A stretch of DNA of 64,000 nucleotides from Flavobacteriaceae bacterium (GTDB taxonomy: Bacteria > Bacteroidota > Bacteroidia > Flavobacteriales > Flavobacteriaceae): the NCBI GenBank assembly GCA_023264015.1, contig JALQTJ010000001.1, forward strand, positions 1 through 64,000, given 5' to 3'. A program made the translations under genes and the position numbers. The notes below the pieces were generated by a model that ran no database searches, was not told where the DNA came from, and saw only the letters and a program-made list of their open reading frames with translations. This document shows positions 56,403-64,000 of the stretch, one piece after another. The first letter of the stretch is position 1, and each line of letters opens with the position of its first letter.

Positions 56403-57806
56403 ATGCAAAAGTTTGACGTTATCGTTATCGGTGCCGGACCTGGAGGGTATGTTGCTGCAATTCGTTGCGCACAACTAGGAATGAATACTGCCATTGTTGA
56501 AAAAGAAAGCACTTTAGGAGGTACCTGTTTGAACGTAGGGTGTATTCCTTCAAAGGCTTTGCTCGATTCTTCGCATCACTACGAGGCAATCTTGCACGAC
56601 AGTAAGGCCCACGGTATTGACATCGAAGGTAAGATCTCAGTAGACTTTGAAGCTATGATTGCTCGCAAGCAGTCTGTTGTGGATCAGACCGTTAAGGGAA
56701 TAGATTTCTTAATGGATAAAAACAAGATCACCGTCTTAAAGGGGCTAGGAAGCTTTATAGATGCCCATACACTAAAGATTAGTGGGGCAGAGGGAACTCA
56801 AGAGGTGACTGCAGACAAGTTCATTATCGCTACGGGATCTAAGCCCGGTAGTCTCCAATTCATAGACTTAGATAAAGAACGCATTATTACCTCAACTGAG
56901 GCATTGTCACTCAAAGAGATACCTAGGCATCTTGTGGTAATAGGAGGAGGGGTAATAGGCCTTGAGCTTGGTCAGGTATACCGTAGATTGGGTGCAGAAG
57001 TGAGCGTAGTCGAATACGCTGATCGCATTACACCTTCTATGGATAGCGCACTTTCAAAAGAGCTTATGAAGGTCTTAAAGAAGCAAGGCATTAAATTCTA
57101 CCTTTCTCATGCCGTTCAGAAGGTGGATAGAAAAGGAGAAAGTGTAGTTGTAGAGGCCTTGTCGAAGAAAGAAGAAAAGGTAGTGCTTGAAGGGGACTAC
57201 GCTTTGGTTTCGGTCGGGAGAGTCCCAAATACCGAAGGCTTAGGCCTTGAAAACACCTCTTTGACACTTGATGAACGAGGACGAATCGCAGTAAATGAAC
57301 ATTTGCAAACTGCTGAAAAACACATTTATGCCATTGGTGATGTGATACAAGGAGCCATGCTCGCACACAAGGCTGAAGAAGAGGGTGTGTTTGTAGCCGA
57401 AACACTAGCGGGACAAAAACCTCATATTAACTATAACCTTATACCGTCGGTGGTGTATACTTGGCCAGAAGTGGCTTCGGTAGGTCAGACTGAAGAACAA
57501 CTGAAAGCATCAGGTGTGGCTTACAAATCAGGTTCATTTCCAATGCGTGCATTGGGAAGATCTAGGGCTAGCGGTGATATAGATGGATTCATTAAGATTC
57601 TAGCAGACCAGCAGACCGATGAAGTATTAGGTATACACATGATTGGTGCACGTTGCGCTGATTTAATCGCAGAAGCTGTGACTGCTATGGAATTTAGAGC
57701 TTCAGCTGAAGATATTGCACGCATGTCACACGCGCATCCAACCTATGCAGAAGCCGTTAAAGAAGCTGCCCTTGCGGCTACAGAAAACAGGGCCCTTCAT
57801 GTTTAG
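56403..57806 (+). CDS. lpdA: Dihydrolipoyl dehydrogenase
   Basis: VIVIGAGPGGYVAAIRCAQLG; GGTCLNVGCIPSKALL redox disulfide; HAHPTYAEAVKEAAL. Confidence 0.96.
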   Translation: MQKFDVIVIGAGPGGYVAAIRCAQLGMNTAIVEKESTLGGTCLNVGCIPSKALLDSSHHYEAILHDSKAHGIDIEGKISVDFEAMIARKQSVVDQTVKGIDFLMDKNKITVLKGLGSFIDAHTLKISGAEGTQEVTADKFIIATGSKPGSLQFIDLDKERIITSTEALSLKEIPRHLVVIGGGVIGLELGQVYRRLGAEVSVVEYADRITPSMDSALSKELMKVLKKQGIKFYLSHAVQKVDRKGESVVVEALSKKEEKVVLEGDYALVSVGRVPNTEGLGLENTSLTLDERGRIAVNEHLQTAEKHIYAIGDVIQGAMLAHKAEEEGVFVAETLAGQKPHINYNLIPSVVYTWPEVASVGQTEEQLKASGVAYKSGSFPMRALGRSRASGDIDGFIKILADQQTDEVLGIHMIGARCADLIAEAVTAMEFRASAEDIARMSHAHPTYAEAVKEAALAATENRALHV

Positions 57807-59068
57807 TGTCTGAAAAAATCCATATTGAAGAGGCTTTCAACCAGAGCCTAGAATCGTTCCGCTCTAATCACTTTCTTTTAGCTTGCAGTGGCGGAGTTGA
57901 CAGTGTAGTTCTAGCACATCTTTTGCATCGAAATAGCTATTCTTTTGGAATAGCTCATGCAAACTTTCAATTGCGTGATGAAGAGAGTGAATTAGACGCC
58001 ATATTTGTTCAAGACCTGGCAAATGATTTCAACGTTCCGTGTTACAGTAAGGTGTTTGAACTCGATCAGTCAAAGAGCATTCAAGAAGAGGCAAGAAATC
58101 TTCGGTATAACTGGTTTTATTCATTGCTAAAATCGAAGGGATACGACTACGTACTAACAGCGCATCACGAAGATGACAGTATTGAAGGAATGCTCATGAG
58201 TGTTTTTAGTGGTGCTTCTTTGCATCGCTTGAGCGGCATTGATCATAATCAATTCGTGTTGAGACCTCTTAAAGAAGCTACTAAGCGTCAAATCATTGAC
58301 TATGCTCAACGCATCGGTATTAACTATAGATCCGATTCTAGTAATCAAAAAAATGATTATCTCAGAAATTTTGTACGCAATAAAATCCTCAACGATTTAA
58401 ATACAAAACTCTCACATTCAGATGAAAAGCTGCGCTACAGCCTATCTTACTTTAAGCGAACACTAAGGCTTCAGGAGTCGTACAGAAGACTTCTCTTAGA
58501 TGAACTCTGGTCTCAAGGTGAAGATTGGGAGGCTTTTACTATTGATGCGCTCAAAGCAAATGAGAATAGTTCAGATGTACTCCAGCTGCTTTTTGAACCT
58601 TATGGGTTTAAGGATTTTCGAGCACTTAGTCACTTGCTGGATGCTGAAAATGGTAAAGAGGTGAGTTCTTTGTCGCATAGGATTTATAGATTTGACCATC
58701 ACTTGTTACTGACTCCTCTTACTTCTTTGAAGATTCGCTACCAGTTTTCTTTTGATGATCCTCGTAAAAGAGATAAGACGCTCAAAGCTTCAGTTGCCGA
58801 GATCAATGTTCATCCAGAAGCCAAGCTGTCGGAAATTGAAGTGAGAAAGTGGAATACTTCAGATAAAGTGCTATTGAAGCATCAAAAATCCCCTAAAAAG
58901 CTTTCCAAGGTTTTAAGAGATATGAAGCTCAATCCTATTGTAAAAGAAAGACTTCAGGTGGTATGCCACAAAAACCAAATTCTTCGTTGCCTGACCTTCT
59001 CGACTATTGACATTCAATTAGAGGTTAATTTTTCATCCCATAAAATCGTGTACGTATGGCGAGAATAG
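57806..59068 (+). CDS. tilS: tRNA(Ile)-lysidine synthetase
   Basis: FLLACSGGVDSVVLAHLL PP-loop; LTAHHEDDSIEGMLMSVFSGA; DSSNQKNDYLRNFVRNKI. Probable GTG start overlapping the lpdA stop. Confidence 0.92.
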   Translation: MSEKIHIEEAFNQSLESFRSNHFLLACSGGVDSVVLAHLLHRNSYSFGIAHANFQLRDEESELDAIFVQDLANDFNVPCYSKVFELDQSKSIQEEARNLRYNWFYSLLKSKGYDYVLTAHHEDDSIEGMLMSVFSGASLHRLSGIDHNQFVLRPLKEATKRQIIDYAQRIGINYRSDSSNQKNDYLRNFVRNKILNDLNTKLSHSDEKLRYSLSYFKRTLRLQESYRRLLLDELWSQGEDWEAFTIDALKANENSSDVLQLLFEPYGFKDFRALSHLLDAENGKEVSSLSHRIYRFDHHLLLTPLTSLKIRYQFSFDDPRKRDKTLKASVAEINVHPEAKLSEIEVRKWNTSDKVLLKHQKSPKKLSKVLRDMKLNPIVKERLQVVCHKNQILRCLTFSTIDIQLEVNFSSHKIVYVWRE

Positions 59069-60987
59069 TAGTGCTCCTTCTGGCTTCATGCTTATGGGTG
59101 TCGGGTTACACTCAATTTAGTGCGACTCAGGTTTCTTGGGATACAGAATGGGAAGAATTAGGTGACGCTCAATACAAACTCATTTTCAATGCCTCTATTG
59201 AAGAGGGGTGGCATATCTTCTCTCAATATTCTCCAGAGGGCGGAAGTCAACCGGCGTTTTTTGAATTCATTGAAACCGAGGCATACCAAAGGATAGGCCC
59301 AGTAATTGAGCCTACTCCTGAAGCCTATTACAATGATGTATTTGAAATTACCGAGCAGATCTTTACAGAGAAGGTACGATTTGAGCAAGTGGTTGAGGTA
59401 TATGATCTGACTAAACCCATTGAAATCACATTGTATTATCAGGTCTGTAAAGAGCTGTGTATCTCTGCGAGTGAAGACTTTATATTTCAAATTGGACAGT
59501 CTTCTAATACTACTACTGAAGATAATGTTGTTGAGCCTAGAGACGCTCTTAAGTCGGCGCTAGATTTAAAGCTTGATCTTAAGAATGAACGGTATCTAGA
59601 AAGTATTGGAGCAAAAGAAGGATCATTGAATATATGGAGCCTTGCCCTTTTGGGATTTTTAGGTGGACTTATAGCGCTATTAACTCCTTGTGTGCTGCCG
59701 ATTATTCCACTTACGGTTTCGTATTTCAATCAAAAAAAGAATGCTACACCTTGGGCCGTGCTCTATGGCCTTTCTATCATTGTGTTGTATATAAGCGCAG
59801 GCCTTCCGTTTCTATTTGGATCCAAGGCAGATCCGCAGTTATTCAACGAAATCGCCAGTCACCCGGCGGTCAATTTCTTACTGTTTATCGTACTGTTGCT
59901 TTTTGCGCTTTCGTTTATTTTTTGCTTCGAATTAAATCTACCCTCGAGCTGGATTCGTATCACAGATCAAAAAAGTGAACGAACGAAAGGATTTGTTTCA
60001 GTCCTTTTTATGGCCTTGACTTTAGTTTTAGCCTCGTTTTCTTGTACAGGTCCCATCTTAGGTGGAGTCTTGGGTGCCCTTGCGACCCAAACAGAGGCAG
60101 GCACTTTTGGGGTTTCATTACTTGTGATATTAGGTGCTTTTGGAGTAGCACTAGCCCTTCCGTTTACGCTTCTTGCCATTTTCCCTAATGCCTTATCAAG
60201 ATTGCCAAAAAGTGGGGAATGGATGAATTCAGTGAAGTTTGTTTTGGGGGTTCTTGAACTCGTCTTAGCGTTCAAATTCTTATCGAATACAGATTTGGTC
60301 GCGGGTTGGTCATTCTTTAAGTACGAGATAATCGTTGGCATTTGGTTTATTATTGGTGTAAGTGCTACCCTATATCTACTTGTTAAACTTTGGAATGACA
60401 CCACAAATCGAATAGTTGGCGTACTAATTCTGATGCCTGTACTTTGGCTTGCAGTTGTTAGCGGGCTTGCGTTGAAGGATCCTTTAAAAGGCGGTGTTAT
60501 TAACACCTTTGCACCTCCTTTATATTATACTTTGAATGCCGAAGAAACGCCTTGTCCTCTGGGTCTTGAATGTTCTTTAAATTTTGAAGAAGGCCTGCAA
60601 CGAGCTCAAGCTGAAAACAAGCCTATTTTCATTGACTTTACTGGGTATTCTTGCGTCAATTGCCGGAGAATGGAGGCTGAGGTTTGGAGCGACCCGCGGA
60701 TCTATTCCTACCTAAAAGAAGACGTTATTCTCGTTAGTTTGTACGTTGACGATAGAACTGAATTAGCTTCTTCTTTAAGAGGTAAATACCAATTGCCCGA
60801 TGGCCGCATTAAATCGATACGTACCATTGGTCAGTATTGGTCTTTGTTTCAAGCGGTAAACTTTAAGTCTATTTCACAGCCTTTTTATGTGCTATTGAAT
60901 CATGACCTAACGCTAATCCAAGAACCTATTCAATTCAGTTCACGAAGCGCCTTTTTGGCTTGGATGGAGCGCGCTTTGCAAGAATAG
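59056..60987 (+). CDS. dsbD: DsbD-like thiol:disulfide interchange protein
   Basis: Signal peptide; LLTPCVLPIIPLTVSYF; SFSCTGPILGGVLG; C-terminal thioredoxin fold DFTGYSCVNCRRMEAEVW. Confidence 0.92.
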   Translation: MARIVVLLLASCLWVSGYTQFSATQVSWDTEWEELGDAQYKLIFNASIEEGWHIFSQYSPEGGSQPAFFEFIETEAYQRIGPVIEPTPEAYYNDVFEITEQIFTEKVRFEQVVEVYDLTKPIEITLYYQVCKELCISASEDFIFQIGQSSNTTTEDNVVEPRDALKSALDLKLDLKNERYLESIGAKEGSLNIWSLALLGFLGGLIALLTPCVLPIIPLTVSYFNQKKNATPWAVLYGLSIIVLYISAGLPFLFGSKADPQLFNEIASHPAVNFLLFIVLLLFALSFIFCFELNLPSSWIRITDQKSERTKGFVSVLFMALTLVLASFSCTGPILGGVLGALATQTEAGTFGVSLLVILGAFGVALALPFTLLAIFPNALSRLPKSGEWMNSVKFVLGVLELVLAFKFLSNTDLVAGWSFFKYEIIVGIWFIIGVSATLYLLVKLWNDTTNRIVGVLILMPVLWLAVVSGLALKDPLKGGVINTFAPPLYYTLNAEETPCPLGLECSLNFEEGLQRAQAENKPIFIDFTGYSCVNCRRMEAEVWSDPRIYSYLKEDVILVSLYVDDRTELASSLRGKYQLPDGRIKSIRTIGQYWSLFQAVNFKSISQPFYVLLNHDLTLIQEPIQFSSRSAFLAWMERALQE

Positions 60988-61041: not shown

Positions 61042-62448
61042 ATGGTTTATGCGCAAAAGACATTCGTTCAAAAAGGAATCGATGTAGAAATAAGCACGAT
61101 CTCTCTTACCTTACAAAAAGGATATGGTGTGCGCAGTTCAGGTATTCCCTTGGCACTGGTTAAGGATCAGTGTGATCGCGCCAAAATAGTATTGGATCAA
61201 ATAGGCCTTCGCCTCAAGGGAGTTAGGTATATATTTCAAGCCTCAATTTCTGCAAATACCACTTCTTATGTTGCCTCTGAGATGGCTGTTGTTGCTCTTT
61301 TAGTTGACGGTTTAAAGGGACGATTACAAAACGATATTCGTGATGATATTTATGTTGGCAGCTTTGACCTTAATGGCAGGGCACTTGCGCTGGAGTATCC
61401 AGAGAAATATTATGTGGCTGCTTTGAAGAGGGGGGCTAAGCATCTTATTTTGCCAGAGACAAATATCAAACAACTCCCTAGATCCAATGAGGTCATCCTA
61501 GTTGGAATCCGCACACTTTTAGATCTATTGCAATTTTTGGAAACGCGAAGTGTTCGCCCTGTAGAGGATAAACCGGTTGAGCTTTCTTGCGATCAAGAAA
61601 TAACACCCTTCTTCTCTCAACCTACGGCGGCTAGAGCCTTAGATTTAGCGATTATCGGAAGACATCATTTACTCATATTTGGAAGACCAGGTATAGGTAA
61701 AACTTCAATCATACAGCACTACATGAAGGTTTTACCTGCCTTGAATAAAGTACAGAAGAAGAGTTTGTGGCCTATAGAGGTAAAGAGAAACAAACCGCTA
61801 TCGGAATGTATTCCGGTCGTGTATATTCATCCTAAAATGAGTGTAAACGAAATTTATGGGGGAGGACGACAGGCGTTCCCTGGAGCCATCTCTTTAGCGC
61901 ACCACGGTATCGTCGTAGCCGATGAATTGGATCATTTTTCTAAGCTTAAACTTGAGACGCTGAAAATGGGGCTTGAGGAGGGCGAAGCTGTATTAGACAA
62001 GAATCAAAATACGGCACGCTATCCTGCAGCATTTACTTTGATCGGGAGTTGTAATGAAGACCTCCGAGAATTAAGTGTAACGCAATTTTCATCCTCTTTC
62101 TTAGATCGCATTGACCTCATTGTTCAGCTCCATAAGCCTAATTTGGATGAGGAGCTATGCTTTTTTGATCCGAAAGAAGTTCGATACAGACTCGACCAAG
62201 CCATTGGCTATAGGGATGAGATGAAAGCGAAGTATTCATTTGAGTCACCTATAGCCACTTACCGCAACCTACCTATTTCAAAAGATGGTAAGTCGTTTAT
62301 TCAAAAGGTCATAGGTTCTGATAAAGGTTCTGTGCGAAGCCTTAATCGTTGGATTCAAACTTCTTTTTCAATGATGTTTCTAGATCAGAATACTCACCTT
62401 ACAGAAGAACAGTTGGCGGAAGCCTTGAGCTTCAAAAGACTTCACTAA
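61042..62448 (+). CDS. Strongly diverged ComM/YifB (Mg-chelatase-like) AAA+ ATPase
   Basis: N-domain DVEISTISLTLQKGYGVRSSGIPLALVKD; Walker A GRPGIGKTS; PGAISLAHHGIVVADELDHF; SSFLDRIDLIVQLHKP; CPCG/RPFRxPHH motifs absent. Confidence 0.8.
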   Translation: MVYAQKTFVQKGIDVEISTISLTLQKGYGVRSSGIPLALVKDQCDRAKIVLDQIGLRLKGVRYIFQASISANTTSYVASEMAVVALLVDGLKGRLQNDIRDDIYVGSFDLNGRALALEYPEKYYVAALKRGAKHLILPETNIKQLPRSNEVILVGIRTLLDLLQFLETRSVRPVEDKPVELSCDQEITPFFSQPTAARALDLAIIGRHHLLIFGRPGIGKTSIIQHYMKVLPALNKVQKKSLWPIEVKRNKPLSECIPVVYIHPKMSVNEIYGGGRQAFPGAISLAHHGIVVADELDHFSKLKLETLKMGLEEGEAVLDKNQNTARYPAAFTLIGSCNEDLRELSVTQFSSSFLDRIDLIVQLHKPNLDEELCFFDPKEVRYRLDQAIGYRDEMKAKYSFESPIATYRNLPISKDGKSFIQKVIGSDKGSVRSLNRWIQTSFSMMFLDQNTHLTEEQLAEALSFKRLH

Positions 62449-64000
62449 CTGATATAACTCCAGAGTAATTTTCCCCTTAAGAGCATTTGTAGGGTAGATC
62501 TGATGCAGTGATGTTCTTGAAGCTCTAAGCTTGCATCCTTTTCTAAAAGGCCTTGCACAAGGGCTCGAATAGTTCCCATCAAAGCGACATCATCGACGAG
62601 ATCAGCAAATTTTAACTGAAGTGTACCACTTTGCTGTGTTCCCATTAGATCTCCTGGACCTCTTAGTTTCAAATCAATTTCTGAAAGATCAAATCCACTG
62701 CTGTATTTTACCATGCTCTCAATGCGCGTTTTTGCATCTTCTGACAATTTATCTTTGGTCATAAGTATACAGTACGACTGATGTGCTCCTCTACCGACAC
62801 GCCCTCTAAGCTGATGCAGTTGAGCCAAACCAAAGCGCTCTGCACTCTCGATAATCATAACCGTAGCGTTAGGTACGTTTACTCCAACTTCAATAACTGT
62901 AGTGGCTACCATGATTTGAGTGGTTCCTTTCTCAAATTGATTCATCTCATACTGCTTTGCCTCTGCACTCATTTGACCGTGCAAGATAGATAAGGCATAT
63001 TCAGGGCTTGGAAATTCGCGGCAAAGACTCTCATATCCATCCATTAAGTCTTTATAATCTAAGGCAGCGGATTCTTGAATGAGCGGATATACTATGTATA
63101 TCTGCCGACCGAGCTTAATTTGTTCGCGAATGAATGCGAATACCTTTAACCTTGAACGATCTGTTCTGTGAGAAGTAATAATGGGGGATCTTCCGGGTGG
63201 TAATTCATCAATGATTGAAATATCAAGGTCTCCATAGGTGCTCATCGCCAACGTTCTGGGAATGGGGGTGGCCGTCATTACCAGAATATGAGGGGGCACT
63301 TCAGCTTTTTTCCACAACTTCGAGCGCTGGGCAACTCCAAAGCGATGTTGTTCATCAATAATTGCCAATCCTAAGTTTTTAAAGATCACCGTATCTTCAA
63401 AAACGGCGTGTGTACCGATCAAAATTTGCAGTTCTCCAGAACGGAGCTCTTCGTGCAAAATACTGCGCTCCTTTTTAGAGGTCGAACCGGTTAGGAGTTT
63501 AACAGCGATATTTAAGGAAGTTAGTTTTGAGGCTATATCGTGGTAGTGCTGTTGGGCTAAAATCTCTGTTGGAGCAACAATACAGGCCTGAGAACCATTG
63601 CCAATTGCAATGAGACAAGTCATAAGGGCAACCATGGTCTTTCCAGACCCTACATCTCCTTGAAGCAGACGATTCATCTGAAGTCCTGAACCCATATCGT
63701 TTCGAATTTCCCGTAAAACACGCTTTTGAGCTTCAGTTAATTCAAAGGGTAAATGAGATTCGTAATAAGCTAAGAATGGGGTACCTACGGCCTCAAATCG
63801 TTGACCTTTGATTGCCGTTTTCTGTTTAATTTTTTGGTAAAGCAAACCCATTTGCATGAAGAATAATTCCTCAAACTTTAAACGGTCTAAAGCCCTTTGT
63901 GTCTCTTTCATCTCGGTAGGTGCATGAAGATGTATCAAAGCCGAGGTTTTATCGATAAGCCTTTGCTCTCTTAGGATATAAGCCGGTAGGGTCTCGTAAA
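62445..64000 (-). CDS. recG: ATP-dependent DNA helicase RecG (N-terminal part beyond window edge)
   Basis: RLLQGDVGSGKTMVALMT; IDEQHRFGVAQR; VMTATPIPRTLAMSTYGDLD; GRVGRGAHQSYCILMT. Reading frame stays open from 63938 to 64000, so this is partial. Confidence 0.94.
   Translation of the reverse strand, partial: YETLPAYILREQRLIDKTSALIHLHAPTEMKETQRALDRLKFEELFFMQMGLLYQKIKQKTAIKGQRFEAVGTPFLAYYESHLPFELTEAQKRVLREIRNDMGSGLQMNRLLQGDVGSGKTMVALMTCLIAIGNGSQACIVAPTEILAQQHYHDIASKLTSLNIAVKLLTGSTSKKERSILHEELRSGELQILIGTHAVFEDTVIFKNLGLAIIDEQHRFGVAQRSKLWKKAEVPPHILVMTATPIPRTLAMSTYGDLDISIIDELPPGRSPIITSHRTDRSRLKVFAFIREQIKLGRQIYIVYPLIQESAALDYKDLMDGYESLCREFPSPEYALSILHGQMSAEAKQYEMNQFEKGTTQIMVATTVIEVGVNVPNATVMIIESAERFGLAQLHQLRGRVGRGAHQSYCILMTKDKLSEDAKTRIESMVKYSSGFDLSEIDLKLRGPGDLMGTQQSGTLQLKFADLVDDVALMGTIRALVQGLLEKDASLELQEHHCIRSTLQMLLRGKLLWSYIS

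Follow-up and report, generated by a model that had tools for sequence, protein, structure and literature searches.

ComM (YifB) is a ring-shaped DNA motor that acts as a branch-migration helicase in natural transformation, and RecG is also a branch-migration helicase. The AAA+ clade of ChlI/BchI, MCM and MoxR is marked by PS1-beta and helix-2 inserts. The best solved relative of the protein considered here is the ComM of Legionella (PDB 8rxd; PMC11612176), and in Riemerella anatipestifer, placed in the Flavobacteriaceae (PMC8459023, PMC8383284), efficient transformation depends on YifB/ComM (PMC8459023). Between canonical Flavobacteriaceae genera, ComM is conserved to an unusual degree, with a mean identity of 77%. 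In one genus of this family, ComM is alone at 20-30% identity yet constrained, which makes it a natural experiment.

The window, i.e. the whole stretch of 64,000 nucleotides that was analysed, comes from a genome of this genus (G000; 1.57 Mb, 97% complete) that belongs to what is termed group A below. The features are as follows; residue numbers of Legionella ComM are those of the 8rxd sequence, and residue functions are from PMC11612176, which numbers the catalytic glutamate E302.

57806..59068, plus strand: tilS, second upstream neighbour, ancestral order (synteny)
59056..60987, plus strand: dsbD-like gene, upstream neighbour in the genus and in canonical G020, G138, G140 and G043 (synteny)
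61042..62448, plus strand: hyperdiverged comM (yifB) ortholog, 468 aa (open reading frame list, Pfam, TIGR00368, 8rxd, hhalign, synteny, trees)
61042..61536, plus strand: N-terminal Lon-protease-like (ChlI) domain, residues 1-165, strongly diverged (hhalign coverage)
61681..61707, plus strand: Walker A, GRPGIGKTS; K220 corresponds to Legionella ComM K224, lysine invariant (alignment)
61816..61842, plus strand: VVYIHPKMS, in the place of canonical RPFRxPHHTIS (alignment, profile comparison)
61909..61932, plus strand: Walker B, IVVADELD; D294 and E295 invariant in the aligned genus sequences (alignment)
62044..62055, plus strand: sensor 1, GSCN; N338 corresponds to Legionella N346, invariant (alignment)
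62050-62115, plus strand: the segment CNEDLRELSVTQFSSSFLDRID (motif position check)
62056..62091, plus strand: remnant of the insert at the MNPxPxG/zinc-finger position (alignment; canonical segments)
62092..62115, plus strand: SSFLDRID; R356 corresponds to Legionella ComM R381, invariant (alignment)
62326..62349, plus strand: GSVRSLNR; R432 corresponds to R463, the arginine finger of Legionella ComM (PMC11612176), invariant (alignment)
62445..64000, minus strand: recG, convergent, running beyond the window end (its match spans 62448-64601 of the contig)

The open reading frame, the ATPase core motifs and the replacement of RPFRxPHH by VVYIHPKMS are as a sequence-only reading of the window had described them (open reading frame list, motif check). 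Its motif positions were mostly right and need small corrections: GRPGIGKTS ends at 61707, and CNEDLRELSVTQFSSSFLDRID starts at 62050, not 62044. The same diverged form is present in independent assemblies from the genus, and an assembly artefact is thereby excluded; a pseudogene or artefact in this genome was rejected on these assemblies and on the dN/dS values given below.

Is this a comM gene? Homology is far above chance, as Pfam Mg_chelatase matches the open reading frame with E 9.7e-33. The proposed comparison with YifB/ComM models was run: TIGR00368 (YifB) is matched over nearly its full length (E 4.9e-33) with 114.5 bits, short of the curated cut-off of 362.4 bits, which is also unreached in G000 and G065 when the whole genomes are searched. 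The best solved relative, Legionella ComM, is matched with E 2.3e-21, and a profile of seven group A proteins aligns with a ComM profile, residues 1-466 on 2-497, with E 4e-72 (hhalign); the architecture of ChlI, Mg_chelatase AAA+ and Mg_chelatase_C is present in this alignment. As the profile-profile match starts at residue 1, the weak N-terminal domain is homologous as well. That this domain resembles ComM only weakly had been noticed in the letters alone and is confirmed: Pfam ChlI goes unreported for the window protein, barely reaches its threshold in G065 and scores strongly in G154, and 8 of 29 family-invariant residues of the ChlI region are kept. In G154 and G065, Pfam recovers the full set of three domains; in the window protein, the AAA+ domain alone is clear. 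The magnesium chelatase I subunit model (TIGR02030) gives 22.9 bits against a cut-off of 466.95. ChlI/BchI, MCM and MoxR-type rings share the AAA+ clade with the window protein but match it more weakly in Pfam and PDB, have no Lon-like N-domain so arranged and lie in other gene contexts. An AlphaFold2 model built from a three-sequence alignment has a pLDDT of 34.5. The window gene is a diverged ComM/YifB with its ATPase core intact and under purifying selection. Like ComM/YifB (TIGR00368; Legionella 8rxd, PMC11612176), it has the three-domain order at full length, the ATPase catalytic residues and the comM locus of the family; unlike it, the protein stands at about 20-30% identity, has a 17-19-residue deletion after sensor 1, falls under the TIGR00368 cut-off and is without RPFRxPHH, MNPxPxG and most N-domain invariants.

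A second canonical comM elsewhere in the genome was sought, as the sequence-only reading had advised, and was rejected: no other YifB/ComM copy was detected in the 1.57-Mb, 97% complete genome, where the sole other Mg_chelatase match scores 23.5 bits. By way of comparison, one Flavobacteriaceae genome (G095; C39, C40) carries two full-length YifB-type genes, with 554 and 636 bits.

Within the genus, a homolog was found in 10 of 11 genomes, intact in nine and with a nonsense codon in one; none is canonical, and no close relative carries a CPCG-containing ComM at the locus. Group A comprises the window genome, G157 (87% identity), G159 (76%), G155 (44%) and G065, G153 and G156 (about 28%); group B comprises G154, G152 and G151 (21-23%). 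An intact open reading frame occurs at the same locus throughout the seven group A genomes; two genomes of group B have one as well. In G151 (L072, 1474-2931), an in-frame TAA lies in the AAA region, either a nonsense mutation or an assembly error. When 400 genomes from 237 genera of the family were searched with the group A profile, scores above 750 bits occurred in this genus only, and the next best, 224 bits, was a protein of canonical length. Among 247 genomes sampled from across the class, no such form was found outside the genus, and a tblastn search of a plasmid collection gave ordinary YifB only (23-25%) among the matches listed. No description of this form, nor of a reduced subfamily that would include it, was found in the open-licence literature searched.

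The gene order tilS-dsbD-comM is common to group A and canonical G020, G138, G140 and G043. In group A, comM sits between dsbD and recG; in group B, a penicillin-acylase gene precedes it and an Nramp-type gene follows (tilS-dsbD-acylase-comM-...-Nramp), an order of which parts are shared with canonical G136 and G008. Maximum likelihood trees of comM, dsbD and tilS are congruent, (G154,(G065,(G155,G000))), with 98-100% support. Because the locus order is common to canonical genomes and the trees agree, comM is vertically inherited, the ortholog of canonical comM at its ancestral locus. Could a distant YifB-like gene instead have displaced comM in the genus? The identity of about 20-30% to any canonical ComM would be expected of such a replacement, but the locus is the same, the comM tree follows those of tilS and dsbD, a graded series leads from group B to group A, and the 237 family genera and the 247-genome class-wide sample hold no closer source. 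A foreign origin is thus disfavoured, was rejected on locus and tree, and appears very improbable.

The tail-to-tail 4-bp overlap with recG (62445-62448) is as first reported. recG adjoins comM in group A only, and the overlap measures 4 bp in G000, G157, G159 and G155 and 8 bp in G065 and G156; a functional link by way of the overlap was rejected on both counts, and the overlap carries no functional inference.

How fast has this gene evolved? Between canonical genera, the mean maximum likelihood distance of comM is 0.41; from the genus to canonical ComM, it is 2.7-4.5, i.e. 7-11 times as large. For dsbD (0.97 versus 1.7-2.3) and tilS (1.85 versus 2.8-3.4), the ratio is about 2, and for comEC and lpxB it is about 1.4-1.5 in a smaller set. 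RecG of the G000 group is about 56% identical to that of canonical relatives. RadA is canonical and scores 575-580 bits in genomes that have it intact; in G000 a contig end truncates it, and in G154 it was read in pieces. These distance ratios, the RecG identity and the canonical RadA point to a wider, roughly two-fold acceleration that accompanies a much stronger one specific to ComM.

The sequence-only reading had attached most weight to a loss of the cysteine cluster in this gene, and in this it was mistaken. Among segments from the loci fetched in this analysis, the stretch from sensor 1 to LDRID is devoid of cysteine in 53 of 53 distinct canonical Flavobacteriaceae ComM sequences (MNPSPSGYF... 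being typical), whereas four cysteines each are present in four segments from other Bacteroidia families, Parabacteroides and Tsukamurella. Legionella ComM has four, and E. coli YifB has one of the four. The cysteine loss is accordingly an old trait of the whole family, the cluster is unusable as a mark of ComM in the Flavobacteriaceae, and cysteine or zinc loss was rejected as an event that distinguishes the genus. Canonical Flavobacteriaceae ComM (e.g. G020, G140), to which the window gene is orthologous by synteny and gene tree, already lacks the four cysteines; it differs from the window gene in having the full insert.

The segment is, however, truly shortened. The insert after sensor 1 is 17 residues shorter than in Legionella ComM, and 19 shorter in the G065 group; all genus forms lack 17-19 of its residues, and of the MNPxPxG/zinc-finger-position insert that is one criterion for ComM, a remnant is left. 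The term 'shortened' thus holds for the residues missing relative to Legionella, and fails for the cysteines, which canonical family ComM does not have to begin with. As first proposed, the deletion covers a putative DNA-contact element: the segment bearing R366 and R369 is gone, and K373 is replaced (alignment). These two arginines are proposed DNA contacts in Legionella ComM, from a map that its authors regard as too coarse to fix such contacts (PMC11612176), so that their loss is no more than suggestive. At sensor-3 R316, group A has Lys and group B has Gln, and at PS1-beta R328 the genus has Lys, Thr or Arg.

Canonical Flavobacteriaceae, Parabacteroides, Legionella and E. coli have 122 invariant columns in common; G000 keeps 50 of these, the members of group A all share 34, and group B retains 63. 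Walker A K224, D302-E303, sensor-1 N346, R381 of LDRxD and the arginine finger R463 are conserved throughout, and the ATPase residues are complete in the nine intact genus sequences that were aligned; in G152 (group B), ERFD replaces DRxD, with R381 retained. Identity between the subgroups of group A is only about 27%, yet none of the catalytic residues varies within that group.

The earlier inference that an ATPase was kept while a DNA element was lost, with a change of substrate or partner, is possible, and relaxed constraint explains the same data. Such a ring might have been retargeted to another DNA structure or to a protein substrate (cf. MoxR/chelatase), its insert and N-domain being remodelled. 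The kept ATPase core, the replaced N-domain, RPFRxPHH, PS1-beta and insert residues (34 of 122 invariants throughout group A) and the strength and ComM specificity of the divergence would fit this. But the locus is still that of comM and has yielded no new conserved partner gene, and co-occurrence with ComEC and DprA fits the old role. Furthermore, group B, with 63 of 122 invariants, falls in between, which makes the change look gradual, and the cysteine argument that lay behind the idea was wrong. A changed job ranks third and is rather unlikely.

Is the gene then in decay? The dN/dS values (pairwise, Nei-Gojobori) are restricted to the closest pairs, dS being saturated beyond them, and come from genomes that are mostly drafts; on this basis, genus comM has 0.12-0.17, recG 0.03-0.06, dsbD 0.07-0.14 and tilS 0.16-0.19. 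Canonical congeneric comM has 0.025-0.028 (two pairs with usable dS), so that the genus value is about 5-6 times higher. Constraint is uneven: it is strongest on the AAA domain in the G000 group (0.07-0.09) and weakest on the C-domain in the G065 group (0.25-0.28). The sequence is constrained, and comM is therefore probably functional, though held less tightly than elsewhere; the purifying selection on the ATPase gene presumed by the sequence-only reading is borne out. The main rival to this functional reading is slow decay, whereby transformation is of little use to streamlined bacteria and comM drifts towards loss. The points that speak against function, namely the raised dN/dS, the weakened proposed DNA contacts and the stop in G151, also fit decay, as do a ComEC without its C-terminal region and the joint absence of ComM and ComEC from many small-genome relatives. 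Values of 0.12-0.17 are nevertheless far below 1, group A open reading frames are intact at 468 aa across lineages of saturated dS with catalytic residues kept, and comEC and dprA persist in genomes of 1.6 Mb. Slow decay is an unlikely account on balance, though a serious one.

Of the 11 genus genomes, 10 have ComEC and 10 have a DprA that scores above cut-off; G157 (93% complete) has no full DprA match, its close relatives have one, and an assembly gap may be responsible. Canonical RadA, too, is kept by nearly every member of the genus. Group A ComEC stops shortly past the Competence domain, and that of group B is without most of the C-terminal region of G020. Inspection of individual loci (L154 in G000, L156 in G155, L157 in G065, L158 in G154) gave lengths of about 445-506 aa versus 670 aa in G020, with most of the C-terminal region absent and DUF4131 unrecognised. 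In the family at large, 19 of 25 ComM-less genomes are also without ComEC, most of them small, and of the six that do have ComEC, four are incomplete drafts; ComEC is found in nine of nine small genomes with ComM and in six of six with an interrupted comM, counts that come from members picked by ComM status only, include drafts and ignore kinship. ComM and ComEC thus tend to be retained or lost together in the Flavobacteriaceae, and their joint loss is apparently a repeated event. Because ComEC and DprA are kept in the genus and ComM co-occurs with ComEC in the family, transformation, or some ComEC-linked process, is the most likely setting of this ComM.

We favour, with reservation, a functional, hyperdiverged ComM, vertically inherited in one genus and probably still at work in transformation or recombination. 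The genus consists mostly of small-genome Flavobacteriaceae, and in it comM has run far ahead of other genes and lost 17-19 residues of an AAA+ insert. By analogy with the family, the protein would assemble on DNA as a hexameric ring in which the Lon-like N-domain serves as scaffold and ATP is hydrolysed at the interfaces of the subunits; conservation of the ATP site, the trans arginine finger among its residues, implies the ring. The motor may move along DNA and, as outside DNA is taken up, branch-migrate recombination intermediates. Its grip on DNA might be by fewer contacts, since the R366/R369 segment is gone, PS1-beta R328 is variable, and R316 is substituted in both groups. Not the loss of a zinc finger but a loosening of constraint on the motor, within a transformation pathway that is itself reduced (ComEC is shortened too), is the most probable driver. 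A bolder proposal is that the genus has re-engineered a minimal transformation system, with a ComM without the insert and with a rebuilt N-domain, a C-terminally short ComEC and a different DNA grip or substrate; this is speculative and on the doubtful side. Under the functional reading that we prefer, the zinc-finger-position insert, RPFRxPHH and most N-domain invariants are suggested to be dispensable, and the ATP site and trans arginines indispensable.

In several Flavobacteriaceae, insertions of about 12-33 kb interrupt comM at a single site (model position about 276, PHHTIS-DVALVGGG), as at L164 (G064), L165 (G091), L162-L163 (G039), L166 (G050) and L167 (G018). The islands of G091 and G064 hold a large open reading frame that, judged by eye, resembles a serine recombinase, and that of G091 borders directly on the break. 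A parallel is reportedly offered by the AbaR islands of Acinetobacter comM. RecG, too, can carry additional sequence: in G133 (L161, 502-3036), G006, G062 and G126, there is an in-frame insertion of about 143 aa within one open frame, and that of G133 matches DUF559 with E 3e-30.
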